A DNA stretch of 20,951 nt, from IMG/VR virus record IMGVR_UViG_3300042521_001771, positions 1 to 20,951 of that record; one strand, 5' to 3'. The notes under the pieces are model-generated. The model searched no databases and had not been told where the DNA came from. It saw only the letters and a list, made by a program, of their open reading frames with translations. The stretch comes from a virus. How positions within the stretch are numbered: position 1 is the stretch's first letter; each line of letters begins with the position of its first letter. The position numbers were made by a program, and so were the translations under genes. Shown in pieces: positions 1-14,400 of this stretch.

Positions 1-241
1 TTAAAGCCTGATTCATTCTTTTTTTAAATTGCTTATACTCGTATATTTCTCCGAATTCATTATTAACGACTCTTTTAAATAAATATCGATTATCATTAAA
101 CCAACGAATATCTAATCTCTTTAAATCCTGACATCGTAAATATCGATCCTGATATAATATTGAATAAACTTTTCCGCATATTTCATTACTTATTATTATC
201 GCAAATGGCTTTCGGACTCTATGTAATGAAATTATAATCAA
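1..241 (-). CDS. Partial hypothetical protein, 3' end outside window
   Basis: A reading frame without stops runs from just after the TGA at 248-250 to the window edge, about 80 codons. It has no ATG near its beginning. The first usable start is a TTG at 239-241, two bases after the stop of the preceding gene (243-503), so translational coupling is plausible; ATT codons nearby are alternatives. The protein begins roughly MIIISLHRVRKPFAIIISNE and is rich in Tyr, Arg, Asp and Phe, with the segment RWFNDNRYLFKRVV about two thirds along. Composition and codon choice (several CGA arginines) match the neighbouring genes, which is why I call it real. It lies in the small-gene transcription unit that starts at 1110. 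I recognise no family and assign no function. Confidence 0.55.
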   Translation of the reverse strand, partial: MIIISLHRVRKPFAIIISNEICGKVYSILYQDRYLRCQDLKRLDIRWFNDNRYLFKRVVNNEFGEIYEYKQFKKRMNQAL

Positions 242-686: not shown

Positions 687-1055
687 TTAATATTCTGAAT
701 AAAATTCGGGATCGTATTCCTCCGATTGATAATAAAAATCAATATTATTTTCAACTTCTTCGATTAATTTTTCTTTCAAAAAATTCAAATCAGATTCAGA
801 TAAAGATAGTATTATAATTTCGTCCTCACTATCGAGAATTTCGTATGTAATATGATTTAAATCAATATCGATTATATATTCACTTGAAGAATTATCAAAA
901 TACTGTCCATTGATATTAATAAAATCAGTCTCGATTACTTCTTTGATATTTATATCGACTCCTGAAATATAATATTTATACTTTGAATCCTCAAAATATA
1001 AATCATAATAAGTCCCCGCTTTGTGAACATCCAAATCAATTAATTTTCTTTCCAT
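687..1055 (-). CDS. Acidic hypothetical protein (122 aa), first gene of downstream unit
   Basis: The frame can be extended to a TTG at 1080-1082, but that codon lies inside the -7 element of the promoter at 1080-1110 and would not be transcribed from it. I therefore choose the ATG at 1053-1055 (MERKLIDLDVHKAG). The protein is strongly acidic and Tyr-rich, with alternating beta-like segments (YYDLYFED, YKYYISGVDINI, EYIIDIDLN) and an acidic, aromatic tail (SEEYDPEFYSEY). No membrane segment, signal peptide or catalytic motif is visible. It is the first gene after the late-operon terminator, so it probably has different timing or strength of expression from the lysis genes. The family is not recognised. 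A small acidic phage protein could be a DNA mimic or inhibitor of a host enzyme, but nothing in the sequence proves that. Confidence 0.7.
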   Translation of the reverse strand: MERKLIDLDVHKAGTYYDLYFEDSKYKYYISGVDINIKEVIETDFININGQYFDNSSSEYIIDIDLNHITYEILDSEDEIIILSLSESDLNFLKEKLIEEVENNIDFYYQSEEYDPEFYSEY

Positions 1056-1079
1056 TGCTTTAAATTTTAAATTATAAAC

Positions 1080-1110
1080 CAAAGATATTTATTCGAAATC
1101 ATATAAACAA
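1080..1110 (-). promoter_or_regulatory. Bacteroidota-type promoter for the small-gene unit
   Basis: On the minus strand a TTG (1108-1110) is followed by exactly 20 nt and then TATCTTTG (1080-1087). This matches the Bacteroidota vegetative promoter (-33 TTG or TTTG, -7 TAnnTTTG, spacing about 19-21). Transcription would begin near 1073-1076, leaving a leader of about 20 nt before the ATG at 1055. It lies just downstream of the intrinsic terminator at 1133-1168, so it would restart transcription for 1055 to 1. Confidence 0.72.
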
Positions 1111-1132: not shown

Positions 1133-1168
1133 AAAATAAATAAAAAAACCCCGATTTTTTTCGAGGTT
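1133..1168 (-). terminator. Intrinsic terminator at end of late/lysis operon
   Basis: On the minus strand AACCTCGA (1168-1161), a loop of six A (1160-1155) and TCGGGGTT (1154-1147) form an 8-bp stem with one G-U pair. A run of seven T and further T-rich sequence follows, to about 1133. This is a canonical Rho-independent terminator, placed after the last lysis gene and before the promoter at 1080-1110. Confidence 0.85.
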
Positions 1169-1254
1169 AGACCCGAATCTTTCTCATTTCGGGGAGGAAC
1201 AAATCCCCTAACTCATTAAGAATTAAGGGATTAATTATAATTAAAATTTAATAG
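1133..1254 (-). ncRNA. Candidate small structured RNA with own promoter and terminator
   Basis: About 120 nt follow a very good promoter match (1259-1290) and end in the terminator at 1133-1168. After an AU-rich 5' part come three hairpins on the minus strand. Hairpin 1 has a 10-bp stem (AATCCCTTAA at 1232-1223 with TTAGGGGATT at 1211-1202, one G-U pair) and an 11-nt loop. Hairpin 2 is a 6-bp stem (CCCGAA 1193-1188, TTCGGG 1177-1172) with a 10-nt loop. Hairpin 3 is the terminator. The linker between hairpins 1 and 2 is pyrimidine-rich (TGTTCCTC). No ORF of useful length fits and it has no tRNA features. An alternative fold pairs GTTAG (1212-1208) with CTAAC (1170-1166) and would compete with the terminator. 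The simpler view is a structured 3' UTR of the late mRNA. Confidence 0.5.
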
Positions 1255-1258
1255 CAAA

Positions 1259-1290
1259 CAAATATATTATTTTATTCGCCTGAATACAAA
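1259..1290 (-). promoter_or_regulatory. Bacteroidota-type promoter inside the 3' end of the 99-aa gene
   Basis: On the minus strand TTTG (1290-1287), a 20-nt spacer, then TATATTTG (1266-1259). Both boxes match the full Bacteroidota consensus (TTTG and TAnnTTTG). Expected start of transcription is about 1252-1255. No start codon of a plausible gene follows before the terminator at 1133-1168, so the transcript would be short and non-coding unless the terminator is read through into the 687-1055 gene. Confidence 0.62.
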
Positions 1291-1566
1291 TTTTCCGATC
1301 AATTTTCCGATTATTTTACCAAATAATTTGAGAAATCCCGATTCTGATTTAATATCAATATCCAATTTATTTGCTTCTTTTTTGATATTTATATCCAATT
1401 TTTCCGAATCGTATTTTAATTCTTTCATTAATTCGTCTTTATGTAATTCAAAATCGATTTTCTTTCCGTCAAATTTGATATCGGTATTTTTTTCCGTTTT
1501 ATCGATTTCGATTTTATTTCCTGAAATATCAATATCCAGGTTAATATCTTTCTTTTTTTTAGCCAT
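1267..1566 (-). CDS. 99-aa protein with cationic amphipathic C-terminus, candidate lysis accessory (disruptin-like)
   Basis: ATG at 1564-1566, 3 bp after the endolysin stop, ending just before the late terminator. It has three parts. The N-terminus is poly-Lys (MAKKKKD). Residues 8-74 alternate hydrophobic and charged residues in repeated strands (LDIDI, IEID, IDFEL, LDINIKKEANKLDIDIK). Residues 77-99 form a cationic amphipathic helix with the repeat GK(I/L/F)(I/V) three times (GKIIGKLIGKFV). Lys/Arg 80, 84, 88, 92 and 96 fall on one face and Gly 83, 87 and 91 beside them. This tail resembles membrane-active antimicrobial peptides. Disruptins are a known class of phage lysis protein that break the outer membrane with such a peptide. 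The position next to holin and endolysin fits, but the role is inference; a peripheral membrane anchor is the main alternative. No signal peptide is visible. Confidence 0.75.
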   Translation of the reverse strand: MAKKKKDINLDIDISGNKIEIDKTEKNTDIKFDGKKIDFELHKDELMKELKYDSEKLDINIKKEANKLDIDIKSESGFLKLFGKIIGKLIGKFVFRRIK

Positions 1567-1569
1567 TTA

Positions 1570-2184
1570 TTAGGGATTAAATTCTTTAATTAAACAATAT
1601 GATACTGATTCTTGTTTTTTTGATTTTTGGGCTTCTTTATACCATTCCATTTGAGATAAATATTTATCCCTTTCATTGATTACCTGACATCCCGCACTCC
1701 ACCCGTCAATGCTCGATTTAGTAATTTTTAAATTTCCCTGACGAAAATCATAGGTATTAGTATGATAATTGATTCCGAAAAATCCCTCTTGTATTGTTCC
1801 TGATTCTTCACTTTTTGAATCATTATCTCCGTCCCTGAATACTTTTATTTTTGCTCCCGTTTGAAGCAAAGCGGGCATTTTTCCTTTATGTAATCCATAT
1901 CTCCAAAGATCATAATACCAAAGATCTGATTTTACGACTGCCGCACCCAAAGAATTATAATGTTTATATCCACCTTTTAATATTGATAATCCAGGATTGG
2001 TTGTTCCCGTCAAAACCTGAATGAATTTTTCCCCCTCGAATTCGTAAAATTTATCGTCAAAATAATTTGGTTGATCCTCGTTTGATCTGACTCCTAAAAT
2101 CCAGCGACCCGTTGGAATTCCTTTGAAATTTGATAGTGATTTTACCCGATTCAGCAATTCAATATCTTTATATTTTCTAACCAT
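1570..2184 (-). CDS. Endolysin, L,D-transpeptidase-like peptidoglycan hydrolase (204 aa)
   Basis: ATG at 2182-2184, overlapping the end of the previous gene by 8 bp. No signal peptide, so export would depend on the holin. The C-terminal half has a YkuD-like active-site arrangement: His141 in GINYHTNT and Ser163/Cys166 in GWSAGCQVI, the H...SxGC pattern of cysteine-dependent L,D-transpeptidase-fold enzymes. The middle part (residues about 50-115) carries the conserved-looking GTTNPGLSIL and WRYGLHKG stretches. Proteins of this type sit beside the holin in Bacteroidota phages and are annotated as peptidoglycan hydrolases. The likely job is cutting cell-wall peptides at the end of infection. That it hydrolyses rather than cross-links is inferred from the lysis-gene context. 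Length is typical for a single-domain endolysin; no separate wall-binding domain is seen. Confidence 0.75.
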   Translation of the reverse strand: MVRKYKDIELLNRVKSLSNFKGIPTGRWILGVRSNEDQPNYFDDKFYEFEGEKFIQVLTGTTNPGLSILKGGYKHYNSLGAAVVKSDLWYYDLWRYGLHKGKMPALLQTGAKIKVFRDGDNDSKSEESGTIQEGFFGINYHTNTYDFRQGNLKITKSSIDGWSAGCQVINERDKYLSQMEWYKEAQKSKKQESVSYCLIKEFNP

Positions 2185-2736: not shown

Positions 2737-4908
2737 TTAAATATAATATGTTCTTTTATTTTTAAATTTATCCCCAACTTTAGCCGTTAATTTTGCTTTT
2801 CTCGAAAAATCGTAATACTCAATTTCGGGACTTTCCTCAAGTATTACGGGAATATCGTTATATCGATATGAATGATTGTGAGCATTATAATCTGAAATAA
2901 ATAATTCATTCTCACTCAATAAATAAAGATCGACCAAAGGCTTTAATTGACATTCCTCAATCGGATCGGTAATTATTTCATATTGATTCAGATTTTCTCG
3001 AATTACTCGCTTCATTTCTCGATTTTGATAAATGATATTATCGATTTCCATATTTGGCTGTCGATTCCCGATATATCCATAAAATCGGTGAGTGCTTTCA
3101 ATATTTGATCCTGAAAAATTGATCCCCTCGATTTCGTGATATCCGTCAAATATCGCCCGAACTCGAGCCGTATTTTTGGCATTTTGGATTGAATAAGCAA
3201 GTAAATTATAAATCCCCCAATCAATAAAACCAATTATTCCGCTTATATTATATTCGATCACTAATTTATAACATCCCTCACCGTCAGAAATTAAAACATC
3301 ATTCCAATTAATTGTCGTGAAAATTGCATTCGGCTCATTAATAAATAATTGAGGAGTCGGAGTGAAATTAGTCTCCGATCCATTTTTATACAATTTGAAT
3401 TGAGCCGTTCCTCCGATATTTAATTTGATCCAGGCTGAAGTTTTATCATTTTCCCAAGTATTCGAAGAATTCGAACCGAGAACGATATTTTCACAGCAAC
3501 AATCTTTTATCCCTCGATTTTGCTCCTGAAAATTATCAGGCAATTTTATCGAATCATACTCTTTATAAATTCGATCCTCAATCCCACAAAGAGTGCAATC
3601 GATTCCCTCCGTTTTTAAATAATTATCCCCTGAAATAAACCAGGATTCAAAATATATCGGAGGATCGGGATCTAACGGAGATAAATCACCAATCGGACAT
3701 AATGAATTTTTTGATAATACTGCTAATCCTGGATCGCCCAAATTAGCCGATATTCTCCAAGCATAATCCCCGTCCCAAAAACAATACAAAATAAAATTTG
3801 GATCAAATGGAAACGATAATAAATAATAATTTCGCCCATTATATAAGCCTGAAACTTGAGATTCGATTGTATATTCAAAATCTCCCGTAAATATAAATCT
3901 GATCCCGCAATCACAATCGGAGGGGATAATCGGACATTCTTTCGCTTCCGAAGTATTGAAAGTATCAAAATATGAATTCTGACTCCAACCAAAAACATTC
4001 GGTAAATTTGAATAAGGGGCTTCGACAAAAGATCCGTCATTTTCTAAAAATGAAACTAAATCCCCTTGCGATCCTGGTATCAATAAAGTCCAACCCGTCC
4101 CAAATGGAGCACCCCAGTTATAAACTGAAATTTGAAATAAAATTCCTGGATATTCAGGGACTTCAAAAATATAAGTCGGAGCACCCGATATTGGATCAAT
4201 TTGATAAATATTTATATCAATCGTATTCGATTCTTGCGATCCTGGTATAATATATTGAATCGATAAACAATTCGTTAAATAGGTATCGCATTCTTTGGTT
4301 TCAATATATGAAAATCCCTGACCTAAAATCCAAACGGGAGAAACCGCAAAAGGGGGACAAGGGGGTAAAGAGTTTTTTACTGCTCCAAATGATTGCCCGC
4401 CTGATCCTCCCAAAATCCAACCGATCTCCCATTGATTGTTCGGATCATTATAATAAAGGAAAAAATCAACTCCCTCGATATTCCATTGATAATAATTATA
4501 TCCTCCGTAAGTCCCTGAAATATTAAGATTATTAATATATGTTTGAGGGATTGAATAAAAAGATATAAATTGAGTGAATTTCACCGAAAGAGATTGCCAT
4601 TGTCCCGCTGATATATTTCCTGATACTTCGCTTGCTATTGGAGTCGCCCATTGAACGTGAATAGTCCCTCCATTATTAGGTAAAGATCCCGATTCAACTT
4701 TCCAAAAATCGTTTAGTTGGTCATACCAAATCGTAAATAAATCAGTATTTGAAGTGACTAAATTATTCAGAGATAATAAATACCAATTCGCTCCATTTAA
4801 TCGACCCTTTGGAATTAATTGAGCAGTCTGATTTCCGTATTGTTCCCCGTTAATATCGATCTGATATTTTTCAATCGTGAGGGTTATATTTACGCAATCA
4901 CAAGCCAT
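2737..4908 (-). CDS. Repeat-containing, Cys-rich tail/adhesin protein with conserved C-terminal domain (723 aa)
   Basis: ATG at 4906-4908, overlapping the previous gene by 11 bp. The protein opens with MACDC. Residues about 20-440 hold four divergent copies of a beta-rich module: NGANWYLLS...FWKVESG, GGYNYYQW...QWEIGW, a third ending GWTLLIPGSQ, and NGRNYYLLS...AWRISANLG. Copies 2 and 4 also share a following KNSL-Cys-Pro stretch. There are 17 cysteines, several in clusters (DCDC 331-334, CTLC 438-441, CCC 470-472). Residues about 470-723 differ in style and contain FDGYHEIEGINF, IYQNREMKRVIREN, LLSENELFISDYNAHNHSY and DFSRKAKLTAKVGDK. I recognise this domain as recurring in structural proteins of Bacteroidota siphophages. 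Placed between the fibre and the lysis genes, it is probably a virion-surface or tail-tip protein with exchangeable N-terminal binding modules. Receptor binding is inference. Confidence 0.75.
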   Translation of the reverse strand: MACDCVNITLTIEKYQIDINGEQYGNQTAQLIPKGRLNGANWYLLSLNNLVTSNTDLFTIWYDQLNDFWKVESGSLPNNGGTIHVQWATPIASEVSGNISAGQWQSLSVKFTQFISFYSIPQTYINNLNISGTYGGYNYYQWNIEGVDFFLYYNDPNNQWEIGWILGGSGGQSFGAVKNSLPPCPPFAVSPVWILGQGFSYIETKECDTYLTNCLSIQYIIPGSQESNTIDINIYQIDPISGAPTYIFEVPEYPGILFQISVYNWGAPFGTGWTLLIPGSQGDLVSFLENDGSFVEAPYSNLPNVFGWSQNSYFDTFNTSEAKECPIIPSDCDCGIRFIFTGDFEYTIESQVSGLYNGRNYYLLSFPFDPNFILYCFWDGDYAWRISANLGDPGLAVLSKNSLCPIGDLSPLDPDPPIYFESWFISGDNYLKTEGIDCTLCGIEDRIYKEYDSIKLPDNFQEQNRGIKDCCCENIVLGSNSSNTWENDKTSAWIKLNIGGTAQFKLYKNGSETNFTPTPQLFINEPNAIFTTINWNDVLISDGEGCYKLVIEYNISGIIGFIDWGIYNLLAYSIQNAKNTARVRAIFDGYHEIEGINFSGSNIESTHRFYGYIGNRQPNMEIDNIIYQNREMKRVIRENLNQYEIITDPIEECQLKPLVDLYLLSENELFISDYNAHNHSYRYNDIPVILEESPEIEYYDFSRKAKLTAKVGDKFKNKRTYYI
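3589..4851 (-). repeat. Four divergent ~100-residue protein modules within the 723-aa adhesin
   Basis: Residues about 20-440. The shared pattern is NG(R/A)N(Y/W)YLLS or GG(Y)NYYxW, then F, a W or Y with D or N, and a closing aromatic segment W(K/E/T/R)(V/I/L). Spacing between copies is roughly 90-110 residues. DNA-level identity is low apart from short stretches such as the words for IPGSQ at about 4068-4082 and 4236-4250, so the duplication is old. Confidence 0.55.
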
Positions 4909-5113
4909 TTATTATATTAATTTGATTATCGAACTCTTTACCCGCTTCTAAAATCAATAATGCTCTTGCTGATTGCATTGCTTCATTATCATTAATTGAT
5001 ATTTCTAATTCTTTACCGAATATGAATTGATTTTGATATTCAATATTATCGGGAATAATCTCAAAATATACTTTATTTTCGATCTGATTTTCCTTAATAA
5101 TTTTTACTTCCAT
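4898..5113 (-). CDS. Small hypothetical tail-module protein (71 aa)
   Basis: ATG at 5111-5113, 3 bp after the fibre gene and overlapping the next start by 11 bp, so coupled translation is likely. The sequence begins MEVKIIKENQIENKVYFEII, contains two beta-like stretches and ends in a helix (NEAMQSARALLILEAGKEF). No cysteine, membrane segment or recognised motif. Being tightly packed between two long surface proteins, it could be a fibre chaperone or a minor tail component; no family is recognised. Confidence 0.7.
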   Translation of the reverse strand: MEVKIIKENQIENKVYFEIIPDNIEYQNQFIFGKELEISINDNEAMQSARALLILEAGKEFDNQINIINGL

Positions 5114-9765: not shown

Positions 9766-11484
9766 TTAAACTATTCTTTGAGTATTTACTTTTCCCGTAG
9801 CATAATCATTCGGAATCCGATAAGTAATATTTGCTTCCTTTGATTCGTCAAAATATTCGATCTCCAAAACCTCGCAATCCAATCCATTTATGTTAGCATA
9901 ATTATTACCAAGCAAAGATATAAAATCAGAATCGGTTAATTTTATTCGAGCATTTTCTTTTAAGATCCAACCATTTAATTGTATCTGATTTATTGAATGA
10001 TATTTTTGCCATAATGCGTTAGCACCAATAATTTGTAAATAATCAGATGGCTGTTTTCCGTTTATAGTCCAAAGTAATTTTGTAGTAGAAAAATAAGGAG
10101 CGGAAATCTTTAAACAATCCTTTCTTTCTCCGATCGTATTCCCGTAATTCGTTCCCCCTCCAAATATTCCCGTAACTGCGTCAATGGCTAAAAATAATCC
10201 CTTTCCGATCAATTCCACCCAATTTAATTTGTCTTTCCTCGATCCCAAAGCAAAAGGGATTGATACCTCATTTAATCCTTTTATCGATACCAAATCCTGA
10301 TTTACTATATTTAATGGCTCGGTCGAATATTCGACTAAATTATAATCAAAAGTTTCTCCGTCAATACAATGCGAATCGGTAAAATCATTTGCATAATGAA
10401 TATAATATCGTTTCCAAATTTCCTCCGAATTATAGGAAAATTCCTCGTCTCGATCCCCCTGAATATTTAAAGCGGGGATAATTTGAGCCGATATATTATT
10501 TACCCAATAATCCCGCCTTTCGAGATAAACAATTCCGTCATAAACTCGAACTTTAGCATTAAACATTGATTCAAGAGTTTCCAATAACGACCATAATGTC
10601 GGAGTCGTATCGGAACTCGACGGATATCCTTTATTAAAAGGATTGAAAAATTCTTCAGGCAAAATATCAAACCACGATTTTCGATTTCTTACAAGAGGAA
10701 CGGGAAGCAAAGTCAATCCCGATTCATTATCCAGGATAGTCGATTGAAAATTAAATCCTAAATGCTGACATCCTTTCAAACATAATTCTTTTATTTTACA
10801 TCCGAGTAAATTTCTTTTCGGAGGGAATATCAAAGTAAATAATTGAGCCGCTAATTTTATAAGAGCGATCAAAATCAAAGCGAAATAAGCAATTTTGAAA
10901 ATCAGTTCCAAAGCAAGAATTATAATAGCACCCCAGTCGGGACCTGGAATCGGTAATCCTACGGGAGTAACGGCTTTTATTAATGCTTTAGCCGTTTCGA
11001 AGACTGCTTTTCCCGCTTCAATCGCTTCCTTTGATAAAATATAAATCGAGATCCCTAAAGTGATTGATTTGGTTAATTGATCGTCCTGAATTATAAAATA
11101 TGGAATTTTAATTGTATTGAATTGAACTCCATTTTTTGCCATTAATTCAAAAGTCGTTCCTTGTGCTCGATCTTTAAAATTATCAAATCCCTTTCTTTTT
11201 TTTACTGAAACCTCAACTTCATTATTTTTGATTATAAGAGATTCAGTCAGATCGATATAATAATTCAATTCCGTCCCTGAATTCATTTGTATTCGATATG
11301 GAATCCCCTCAAATATTCCTATATTTTGAATATGATTGAGAATTAAGTCTTTTGCTTCACGAGGTAAAATAATTGAATCGGTCGTTAATTCCAATTCATT
11401 CGGATTCCCCGTAAAAAGAGATTTGATTCCGATTTCCGTTCGATTTCGGGGACTTATTTCAATATCATTTATAAAATGTTTCAT
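9766..11484 (-). CDS. Tail hub/tip protein with internal hydrophobic segment (572 aa)
   Basis: ATG at 11482-11484 overlaps the tape measure stop (ATGA), so the two are translationally coupled. The N-terminus (MKHFINDIEISPRN) and the C-terminal half look like a tail hub or distal-tail family I associate with Bacteroidota siphophages: residues about 225-270 with CKIKELCLKGCQHLGF, about 295-330 with LWSLLETLESMFNAKVRVYDG, and 500-560. Residues 185-220 (GAIIILALELIFKIAYFALI and on) are strongly hydrophobic and could form one long or two short membrane helices. A second, weaker stretch is at 425-440. As the gene directly after the tape measure, it likely forms the hub at the tail tip; the hydrophobic part could enter the host membrane during DNA delivery, which is inference. 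Confidence 0.75.
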   Translation of the reverse strand: MKHFINDIEISPRNRTEIGIKSLFTGNPNELELTTDSIILPREAKDLILNHIQNIGIFEGIPYRIQMNSGTELNYYIDLTESLIIKNNEVEVSVKKRKGFDNFKDRAQGTTFELMAKNGVQFNTIKIPYFIIQDDQLTKSITLGISIYILSKEAIEAGKAVFETAKALIKAVTPVGLPIPGPDWGAIIILALELIFKIAYFALILIALIKLAAQLFTLIFPPKRNLLGCKIKELCLKGCQHLGFNFQSTILDNESGLTLLPVPLVRNRKSWFDILPEEFFNPFNKGYPSSSDTTPTLWSLLETLESMFNAKVRVYDGIVYLERRDYWVNNISAQIIPALNIQGDRDEEFSYNSEEIWKRYYIHYANDFTDSHCIDGETFDYNLVEYSTEPLNIVNQDLVSIKGLNEVSIPFALGSRKDKLNWVELIGKGLFLAIDAVTGIFGGGTNYGNTIGERKDCLKISAPYFSTTKLLWTINGKQPSDYLQIIGANALWQKYHSINQIQLNGWILKENARIKLTDSDFISLLGNNYANINGLDCEVLEIEYFDESKEANITYRIPNDYATGKVNTQRIV

Positions 11485-14400
11485 TTTCGAACTTTATATC
11501 TATTATAAATAATTGTATTTCCTCTTTTTTGCTTATCAATTATCTCGACCATTGATTGAGTTACTTCCCCAAGTCCGTAATAATTTTCAGGTTTATTCCT
11601 GATTGTTTGATTTACCTCGTCTAATTTATTGACTAAAATCGCTAAATCCAAAGCCGATCCACTCTGATTATTCCCTTTCAATAATTTCCCGTTTTGATAT
11701 TCAATAGCAATTCGAGTTAATTCTTCATTACTAATCCCTTTTAAGCGATCATTCAGATTTTTTGGGATTACTCTTTCGTTTGGATGTAATATAGCCTGAA
11801 ATCCTCCCTTTCCGTCAATTCCTGATCCATTTTTACCCGTATCTTCCGTTCCTGATTCAAAAGCGGGAAGCGAATTTAAAAAGGCTTGAAGCAAAGCGAC
11901 ATCTTTTATAGTATCAGTCAGAGCCTTGCTCGATTTTTCCCCTGGTTCTAAATTTTGTAAATTCTTCGAATAGGCTTCATAAACCGACTGAGTCAATTTG
12001 ATTCGATTCTGCTTCCGTAATTCCTTTTCCTTTTGTTTATTGGCTTCAGCAATGATCCGATCTTGTTCTGCTATTGATTGTTTTGCGTCTATATTCCCCT
12101 GAACTGCTAATTCTTTCAACATATCTCGAGTCTTTTCAGCCGCTTGAATTTCTTTATCTAATTGAGCGACCTTTCTTTCCGATTGCTTAATAAAAAAATC
12201 AGTTGAAACCTTGACAATATCGTCCATTTTTTTATATAAATCCTCTTGTGCTTTGATCTGCTTTTTTGCTTTTTCGTCGAAATCTTTTTGCTCTTTATTA
12301 TAATATTCGTCCTGAGCGTCTTGAATTTCCTCGCCCGCTTGTTTTAACTTTTCATTTTTAGCGTCCTCGATTTTAATTATTTTATCTTTGGATTCCTCTG
12401 CTTTTTTGACTTTTTCGGTTTCTGCGTCTTTATTTCTTTTCGCATTTTCGATATCTAATTGTTCCTGGCGATCGGCATAAATTTTATTTAATTCAGCAAT
12501 TTTAGTATTTTTTTGTTTGGTCGTTAATTCTGAATCATTGATTTTATCTAACTCAGATTGATAATTACTATCTAATTTTTTTTGTTCTGCTAATATTTCC
12601 GCTTTAACTCTTTCGTCAATGGCTTCGAGATCGAATTTTAATTGATCCTGAGCATATTGTTTTTCCAATTCATATCGATCGACAATTTGTTGCTCAACGG
12701 GGCTATACATATCTCCGAATTCGACTTGACCTTGAGCATTGATTTTACCCTCAACTCCGACCTCAATTTGTCCCGTTTCCCTTGCTTTTTTCTTTGCATT
12801 ATTAATTGTAGCATTGATATCTTTATCTAATTGAGATAATTTTCTTTCATTTAATATATTTTGAATCTCATTCAATAATGTTTTTTGTCGATCGAGATAA
12901 AAATCAATTTCTGATAATTCAACTTTTAAATCTTTATGCAAATTGACATTAGTTTTTAATTTATCGGAGTTATCAGCAACTCGAACTGAATAATCCTCTT
13001 GTGCTGAATTAACCTCTAATTGACGCACTTGCGCTTCGTCCAAAGCGTCGTTAAATTCCTTTCGGCTTTCTTTTAAATTTTTAAGTAATAATTCGTCCTT
13101 TTGTAAATTTTGACTCAAATTTCCAATTAAAGAAGCATTTAAATCAGTCGATCCCTGACCTCGCATTCTGATCTGATTTACTTGCTTTTGTTGTTTTTTC
13201 TGCTCCTCCCGTAATCTTTTTGTATTGGCGATTTGAAATTCTAATCTTGTAATATTTGCGTCATAATCCTTTTTTGATTGTTCGTAAATATCCTTTTCTC
13301 GATTTGCTCTTTCTTTATCTAATTTTTCCTGGCTTTCTCCATTTGCTCGTCTTGTTCGAAGTTCTTTATCGAGTAATCGTAATCTTTCCTGAACTTTTTT
13401 CTTTTCGTCCTCGACTGTTTTACTTCCCTTTTGATCTGCGTATTCTTTTGCTTTATTGAATAAATCTTGTTGCCTACGGGCTTCAGCCGCTCCCGAAGCG
13501 ATATCATACCATTTTGTCGCTACCTCGACTAATACTGATATCAGTAACATCCACCCAATCGCTTTAAATGCTTGACCGAATCCTTTTACTGCCGTTCCCG
13601 CTTGAGTAGCCGTAGTCCCCGTCATTTGTTGCGCCCTCGCTAATTGGATTTGTTCTAATCGATAGGCTCGAGTTCCAGGAATTTGTCTCAATATATTTGC
13701 TCCGAATTCTTTAAAATTCGTATTTCTTAATTTTTCGATTGCTAATAATCCATAAACTACCCCTTTATAAATGAGCCAGGCTCTCGCTAATTTTCCAATC
13801 AAAGAAATTATTGTTCCCAAATTATTTGCCAGGAAATCCAAAATATATCCAAATGATCCCGTCATTTTTCCCGATTCGTCAAGACCGAGAATATATTTAT
13901 CAAAAGCACTTTTTAATTTATCAATTTTAGCCGCTAACGTATCATTCTTTTTAGCGAATTCGTCATTAATTGAATTCGTATTTTTTAGAGCCTTTCCCGC
14001 CTGATCCGTTCTCGTTGCTAATAATTCCTGATTCTTTGATAATTTTAATAATACCTCACTTGCTCCCGCTCCGTCAATTTTTAATCCGTCAAGAGCCTGA
14101 GCCAGTCCCACCGTATCCCCCTCAAATTGACCCGATTTTGCTACGACTTTATTGAATGCTCCCATTAAATCGGTATTCACTAAATCGGTAAATTCTTTCA
14201 TAGGCATACCGACAAATTCAGCGAATCCCGCTGTATTCGAAGCCATTTCTTTTAATAATCTTTGAGTAGCCGTTCCCCCTCTTTCAGCCGTAATATTCAA
14301 TTCCTGGAGTGTCGCTGATAATCCTAAAACTTGAGACGAAGTTAATCCCAAAGGAATACCAACCCCTCCGATTCGACCCGCAAAATCTGAAATAACGGGC

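Follow-up and report, generated by a model that had tools for sequence, protein, structure and literature searches.

A probable short RNA behind the lysis genes of a group of Bacteroidota-type phages, its start antisense to their own early message starts

Bacteroidota are a dominant phylum among the bacteria of gut, soil and water, and to our knowledge little is known of how their phages time their genes. The locus described here raises this question at one place, the short gap between the last lysis gene and the first early gene: does it hold the end of an operon only, or an RNA gene as well, and what would such an RNA do? The window, i.e. the whole stretch of DNA analysed (20,951 nt; IMG/VR record IMGVR_UViG_3300042521_001771), is an exact piece, reverse complemented, of the viral contig IMGVR_UViG_3300044733_002632 (G001; 36,656 bases, below the 36.7-kb contig), and contig positions (c) were converted by window position = 22572 - c. 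An initial annotation, made from the letters alone, had proposed an independent small RNA gene at positions 1133-1290. We suggest that a group of Bacteroidota-type phages probably makes a short RNA at this lysis end, its start being antisense to the starts of the phages' own early messages.

In G001, 47 of the 48 genes of the ORF set run the same way. From the contig start, prohead protease and capsid genes are followed by a long stretch, taken for structural genes, and then by holin- and endolysin-like genes, p99 and the RNA unit, after which come genes for a DnaB-like helicase, NinG, the ERF recombinase, an exonuclease, a ParB-like nuclease and QueC/D/E-like proteins, with the large terminase gene near the contig end. 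No integrase was found among the 25 proteins (of 48 ORFs) compared with PHROGs or Pfam. The endolysin-like gene (1570-2184, minus strand; 204 aa; phrog_33083 endolysin, E = 1.2e-8), which served as a query for relatives, lies upstream of p99 (1267-1566, minus strand; 99 aa), the last gene of the lysis operon. The promoter type and the endolysin relatives point to a host in Bacteroidota; these relatives, all distant matches among annotated phages, include Bacteroides and crAss-like phages, but also Pseudoalteromonas phages. The first early gene after the RNA (687-1055, minus strand) encodes 122 aa from its ATG, with no Pfam match. A start of the lambda-like antitermination kind was considered and dropped because early genes follow (NinG, ERF and DnaB-like helicase downstream).

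The p99 protein has a lysine-rich N-terminus, repeated D-I-x-x-D segments (D-I-x-V/I-D in the family) and a cationic C-terminus; the copy in the window has no PHROG match and, in Pfam, matches below the cut-off only. Proteins of this kind form a large family adjoining lysis genes (201 relatives in viral contigs; seen in the window and in L188-L266), possibly lysis accessory or membrane-active proteins.

The promoter P1 (1259-1290, minus strand) is present as annotated, with TTTG (1290-1287), 20 nt and TATATTTG (1266-1259), and agrees with the type described for Bacteroidota in the available part of the source (-33 TTTG, -7 TAnnTTTG; PMC7366714). Its -33 part lies in the 3' end of p99 and its -7 box directly after the p99 stop codon. 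The match alone is weak evidence, since TTG-19..21-TAnnTTTG occurs at 7 sites on both strands of the 36.7-kb contig, 3 of them intergenic and on the coding strand; its weight comes from conservation. Between the p99 end and 1133 (about 115 nt) the minus strand carries no ORF of at least 40 codons, in line with the annotation. The two hairpins that it described were also recovered by prediction, 1255-1133 folding at -33.9 kcal/mol vs -22.7 +/- 3.7 for shuffles (z = -3.06): hairpin 1 with a 13-bp core (1202-1232, minus strand) and hairpin 2 (1172-1193, minus strand). The intrinsic terminator (1142-1168, minus strand; stem 1168-1147 plus T-run) ends both the RNA and the lysis operon, and terminator-like sites number 3 in 3 kb, both strands, vs 1.1 expected. 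The annotation recognised no known RNA family. Rfam gave no match at gathering score in the window, and a permissive search of 1050-1350 returned 10 matches, all far under their gathering scores and none of them to C4 or P4 CI. Two other readings were considered by eye and dropped, since neither is seen in relatives: an attenuator, in which hairpin 2 would pair with the terminator, and a leader peptide of six codons (ATG AGA AAG ATT CGG GTC TAA).

Relatives were sought in three ways, with the endolysin (23 viral loci), with p99 of three phages (at least 19 loci) and with a wider p99 alignment (80 listed of 201); the downstream stretches were compared in 77 of these 80 loci, L033, L253 and L261 sitting on contigs already included. 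Hairpins 1 and 2 are absent, by eye, from the nearest relatives (L003, L004 and L033), and each of them has a short stretch followed by a terminator. The 20-nt promoter spacing is kept in all three, P1 of the window being shifted by one codon relative to the stop, and a terminator also follows in other lineages with the -7 box. Among the p99 loci with enough sequence, TAnnTTTG lies within 25 nt of the stop in 87 of 96, which are not 96 independent cases because many are closely related; at other gene ends it was found in 8 of 415 (12 contigs). A TTG precedes the box by 17-21 nt in 69 of the 87 box-bearing loci. Nine loci are without the -7 box (L034-L036, L042, L048, L049, L251, L254 and L256), and in L042, L048 and L049 another open frame directly follows p99, as judged by eye. 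In L020 and L022 a different gene of 290 aa ends the operon, yet the same box and the same CTTCATAAT start are found.

The 10 loci of group B were found by protein alone. In them 7 of 78 columns of the RNA gene vary, vs 37 of 75 third codon positions of p99 and 58 of 83 columns of the spacer behind the terminator. In this group, therefore, constraint acts on more than a terminator. The proposal of an independent small RNA gene is borne out in part: comparative sequence evidence speaks for a unit of about 110-120 nt past the lysis genes, but this evidence does not lie in the hairpins. The linker TGTTCCTC and the hairpin loops had been named as the parts free for base pairing, and the evidence sits instead in the 5' tail of the RNA (about 1254-1231).

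We also searched viral contigs with the pattern TATNTTTG-N6-TCTTCATAAT, which gave at least 120 matches. Those inspected were L050-L135 (86, of which 13 already known) and L136-L170 (35), i.e. 108 new loci, with a terminator behind in 3 (L091, L121 and L150) and none in 105. The contig of L121 was already included as L038, and the stretch in L150 reads like L020; most of the listed loci without a terminator look like antisense reads through a coding region. In annotated phages, DNA similarity was limited to short chance-level matches, and p99 had no match in that collection. Cellular genomes yielded no endolysin relative, and a 21-base piece taken from the group B RNA had no exact counterpart in them.

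The 5' tail CTATTAAATTTTAATTATAATTAA (1231-1254, minus strand; 24 nt) is a putative seed. The predicted fold leaves 18 of these nucleotides (1254-1237) unpaired and places the others in the foot of hairpin 1. Apart from its own locus, this tail has just three perfect complements of 13 nt or longer in the whole 36.7-kb contig. They measure 19, 15 and 14 nt, and each starts, on the coding strand, 16-21 nt upstream of a start codon (25712, 29307 and 26490, the last that of the ERF recombinase). The longest is formed by 1253-1235 with the leader at contig 25712, outside the window. In the regions upstream of genes, none of 300 shuffled tails finds a match of 19 nt, and 4 of the 300 match three or more such regions over at least 12 nt. 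In a duplex-energy scan of the whole contig, leaders are the first two non-self windows.

Next to the RNA, the promoter P2 of the following gene (1080-1110, minus strand; TTG, 20 nt, TATCTTTG) was found by pattern search, and its region resembles the stretch preceding the gene at contig 25712 (78% over 73 nt). The leader behind it, target 1 (1056-1078, minus strand), can pair at 1077-1060 with an unbroken run of 17 tail bases if one leader base is bulged out; taken alone this match is weaker, 25 of 300 shuffles being as good (44 of 1000 in another run). When the full 82 nt before the terminator were used in place of the tail, the genes with a TAnnTTTG box ranked 5, 23, 26, 33 and 34 of 47, a poor ranking that we ascribe to the G/C-rich hairpins. 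Promoter-like leaders without a match are found at G001 33867, G004 11867 and G007 815 and 16089.

The pairing in the window's phage is of A/T only, and in very A/T-rich DNA both the promoter match and the complementarity could be chance, the locus being the terminator of the lysis operon and nothing else. Further results fit this explanation: L004/G012, G010, and lineages C and E show no such pairing, and coding windows of group B contigs can equal leaders in score. We nevertheless hold it to be highly improbable, since dinucleotide shuffles, segments of the same contig and leaders of other lineages are all beaten in most contigs tested. Against their own promoter-linked leaders, chosen by promoter pattern (G005 and G009 yielded none), no shuffled tail of 1000 was as good in G001, G002, G003, G004, G006 and G008; the number was 2 in G007, 6 in L003, 17 in G010 (one leader, of an unrelated gene) and 35 in G011 (two leaders), and L004/G012 was negative with 346.

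With same-strand segments of the contig as control, tails chosen by eye were compared in 9 of 12 contigs, the ERF leader being added for G011. The segments pairing as well were 0 of 988, 817, 737 and 653 in G001, G002, G003 and G004, 0 of 585, 434 and 309 in G006, G008 and G011, and 4 of 502 in G007, with G012 negative (160 of 993). The 24-nt tail of the window was fixed after the complementarity had been noticed, and the comparison was repeated in 11 contigs with the tail set by one rule for all of them (30 nt beginning 4 nt after the -7 box) and tiled same-strand segments of the same length. By this rule at most 2 segments pair as well in 9 of 11 contigs: 1 of 987 in G001, 2 of 502 in G007, 1 of 309 in G011, 0 of 138 in L003, and 0 of 817, 738, 653, 586 and 434 in G002, G003, G004, G006 and G008. 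These positive contigs count as four lineages because G002-G004 and G006-G008 share nearly one RNA. The two negative ones are G012 (64 of 993) and G010 (65 of 243, with one leader, that of an unrelated gene). Whole-contig scans of duplex energy are less clear-cut in group B and G011, where coding windows often score as well as leaders or above them, the best promoter-linked leader ranking 5th in G002, 11th in G003, 2nd (tied) in G004, 3rd in G006, 1st in G008 and 4th in G011.

The partners differ between lineages. The RNA of G011 (L033) has 14-nt perfect matches at exactly two non-self places, which are the leaders of a RadC-like gene and of ERF. In group B, the blocks CATAATT and TTAATTGTT match AATTATG, which holds the start codon, and AACAATTAA in several gene leaders, ERF included. 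Pfam confirmed ERF in G001, G004, G006 and G011; the genes of G002, G003, G008, G014 and G016 were called ERF-like by eye only. In lineage C2, the RNA sequence CATATCTGTTTT matches the leader AAAACAGATATG, again with the start codon, and this 12-mer occurs exactly once per orientation in 9 of the 10 contigs given, while the reversed control never occurs; in three C2 contigs (51, 47 and 28 plus-strand genes) the neighbouring gene ranks first for pairing. Pairing with the next gene was compared in 91 given loci, of which 82 were parsed into 55 distinct pairs, L265 being left out of the lineage tests. Neither lineage C (L034/L036) nor lineage E (L021/L022) pairs convincingly with that gene, and the next-gene leaders of L004, L033, L034, L021 and L022 are no better than shuffles (330 of 1000 as good in L033); in L022, choosing the later ATG instead of the early one gives no better pairing. 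Taken over the sequences, the predicted pairing of RNA and leaders is well supported. The unit has, by sequence, the marks of a small RNA gene, with its own promoter, an intrinsic terminator and no ORF, and with complementarity beyond chance outside L004/G012, G010, C and E.

When leaders are exchanged between lineages, the pairing proves specific to the own lineage. Over nine lineages, 133 of 362,880 permutations fit as well, four lineages fitting other leaders better than their own; over seven lineages, L262 being treated separately and L004, C and E excluded, a single permutation of 5,040 is as good, and that one is the true assignment. In the C2 member L262 the leader is AACCAAAACAATATCACATG and the RNA CATGTATATTGTTTGGTTA; both differ, yet they can pair (-18.9 kcal/mol; 2 of 1000 shuffles as good). 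In L251, which lacks the -7 box, the RNA GTTCCAAATATGAT can pair with two stretches where the next gene begins, ATCATATT and TGGAAC (5 of 1000 shuffles as good). Start contexts follow the same division: of 284 gene starts in group B (seven contigs, G002-G008), AATTATG spans 37 and AGATATG 0, against 5 and 12 of 131 in three C2 contigs and 4 and 2 of 47 in the window's phage. Read from the sequences, the change is a joint one of RNA and target leaders between lineages, rather than one within stems.

Complementarity of this kind would also arise from DNA sites, if the same protein-binding operator directly followed P1 in one orientation and the early promoters in the other. The arrangement in the window's phage would suit it, the shared sequence lying directly behind the -7 box at P1 and in the leaders. 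We consider it improbable, because the match takes in start codons and their context (AATTATG in group B, AGATATG in C2, ATGGAAC in L251), and because the group B blocks are ordered as one antiparallel duplex needs, with variable spacing.

The antisense match to early messages suggests a simple RNA switch that would turn early genes off, and the explanation that we find best and fairly likely is an antisense RNA that acts in trans and keeps early phage mRNAs from being translated. Its transcription would start at P1 and end at the terminator, and the 3' end of the lysis-operon transcript may be a second source. Its 5' tail would be the antisense of a leader common to mRNAs from early promoters, start codon included in several lineages, and would pair in trans with early leaders, blocking ribosome entry at the covered start region. 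As lysis-operon expression and the RNA build up, early genes, among them the next gene and the ERF recombinase operon, would be shut down. RNA production, its 5' end, its timing and repression rather than activation are what we infer from the sequences. Since the unit ends the lysis operon, late shut-off of early genes is the simplest role, and exclusion of like phages would follow from it. A time switch is not evident from the promoters, because P1 belongs to the same type as the target promoters.

The tail could also act mainly in cis: in late transcripts that read through the terminator it would fold back on the next leader and keep these transcripts from expressing early genes, a mechanism that would need no free small RNA. 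Such a lock agrees with the ability of the tail to pair with the leader of the next gene in B, C2, F (L251/L256) and L003, more weakly in the window, and with the adjacent leader being the only exact 12-nt partner in 9 of 10 C2 contigs. Yet the best partners in the window's phage lie 4-8 kb away, two distant leaders of G011 pair better than the adjacent one, the promoter box stands directly before the tail in 87 of 96 loci, and the terminator separates tail and next leader, so that we regard the cis-acting lock as unlikely. Since the best partners lie kilobases away in both the window's phage and G011, action in trans is favoured.

The gene next door raises one more possibility, a pair like a type I toxin-antitoxin system in which the RNA would be the antitoxin silencing a small membrane peptide. 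By a loose pattern, 30 of the 55 distinct loci parsed have a next gene that looks like one for a 48-aa protein with one apparent membrane segment (G004 is an example, as are three C2 contigs), and in the drawn B and C2 examples the start codon lies inside the predicted duplex. The resemblance to such a peptide is one of looks and is confined to parts of group B and to C2, and the toxicity is putative; the next gene differs in the window's phage, G002, G006 and G011, distant recombination genes are matched too, and the 122-aa protein of the window does not, by eye, look like such a peptide. A toxin-antitoxin pair thus has little probability in our estimate. The 48-aa-like protein behind the RNA carries PANxEHKxFL (L267/L268 (G014), position 13994; G004, position 10216).

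A trans-acting RNA of this kind has its nearest counterparts, by logic, in the P4 CI RNA and the C4 antisense RNA of P1, P7 and related phages, which are processed from the transcript that they control and act within one operon, in prophage immunity, by promoting premature termination. Like them, it would be a short phage RNA pairing with leaders of its own early transcripts; unlike them, it sits after the lysis genes and is complementary to several leaders at separate places, in many cases at their start codons, and the Rfam models of C4 and P4 CI have no match in the window. In lambda 6S RNA, the promoter pR' is followed by the terminator tR'. Our locus is similar in that a promoter is followed at once by a terminator, which would yield a short RNA, but early, not late, genes lie downstream here and the RNA is complementary to their leaders.

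Lambda 6S RNA is named among phage small RNAs in a 2025 review, whose available part covers sar, OOP, aQ, sas, 24B_1, PreS, VpdS and STnc6030 and describes none of these as pairing with a set of own early leaders (PMC12197685). P22 sar and lambda OOP are given in that part as phage antisense RNAs pairing with one phage mRNA each (ant and cII, respectively), sar interfering with translation initiation (PMC12197685); unlike these two as described there, the RNA of the window matches several leaders within one genome. On the host side, the accessible part of a Bacteroides study reports no obvious Hfq or ProQ and describes small RNAs of Bacteroides thetaiotaomicron such as GibS as A/T-rich and unstructured, with possibly extended seeds (PMC7366714). 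Going by that description, they share the promoter type with the RNA of the window, but are host RNAs acting on host mRNAs. The perfect matches of 14-19 nt fit a possible need of A/T-rich, unstructured RNAs for long seeds.

In the titles and abstract beginnings of the literature searched, which holds few subscription journals (early-gene-acting RNAs, RNAs of Bacteroidota, Flavobacterium or crAss-like phages, antisense immunity RNAs), no phage RNA matching several of its own early leaders was found. What would set this RNA apart is the conserved place, the match to several own leaders and the joint change; base-pairing phage RNAs as such are already known. If a conserved RNA reads the leader code of its own phage, this would be a testable early-to-late switch made of RNA alone, by which exclusion of like phages might be explained and through which repression in Bacteroidota could be programmed by a simple rule. 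Phage RNA genes could be found through their match to leaders of the same genome where sequence and structure are too variable for family models. A wider claim, that these RNAs are a widespread new anti-start-codon family of Bacteroidota phages that evolves with the leaders, shuts the whole early regulon, is the early-to-late switch and gives immunity to a second like phage, is possible, and we advance it tentatively, inclining somewhat against it as a whole.

Other elements were observed around these loci. In L008, L009, L010, L012, L013 and L015, no p99 follows the endolysin, and other hairpin-like stretches (GTTCAAGGTGTTGAAC in L008) precede the terminator; these may be another RNA element. 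In L192, L193, L213 and L218, an insert of about 90 bases with complementary ends (GAATTAAGAATTAAGAAACACTCCTATTGGG...CTAATTCTTAATTC) lies between the terminator and the next promoter, in the manner of a small mobile repeat. In G001 (contig 30768-33303, numbered 12768-15303 in L030), QueC-, QueD- and QueE-like genes and a tRNA-guanine transglycosylase-like gene form a run; their products could act in modifying the phage DNA with 7-deazaguanine. Behind a promoter-like site, a second long leader (for example TTCGAGTTCATCCTACATTATAAA...GGTATTATTGACCCTTTGAATGAATGTGAGGTAGGATG...) recurs in G002 (near 21237), G003 (near 5010) and G011 (near 3508), possibly another RNA gene or a regulatory leader.
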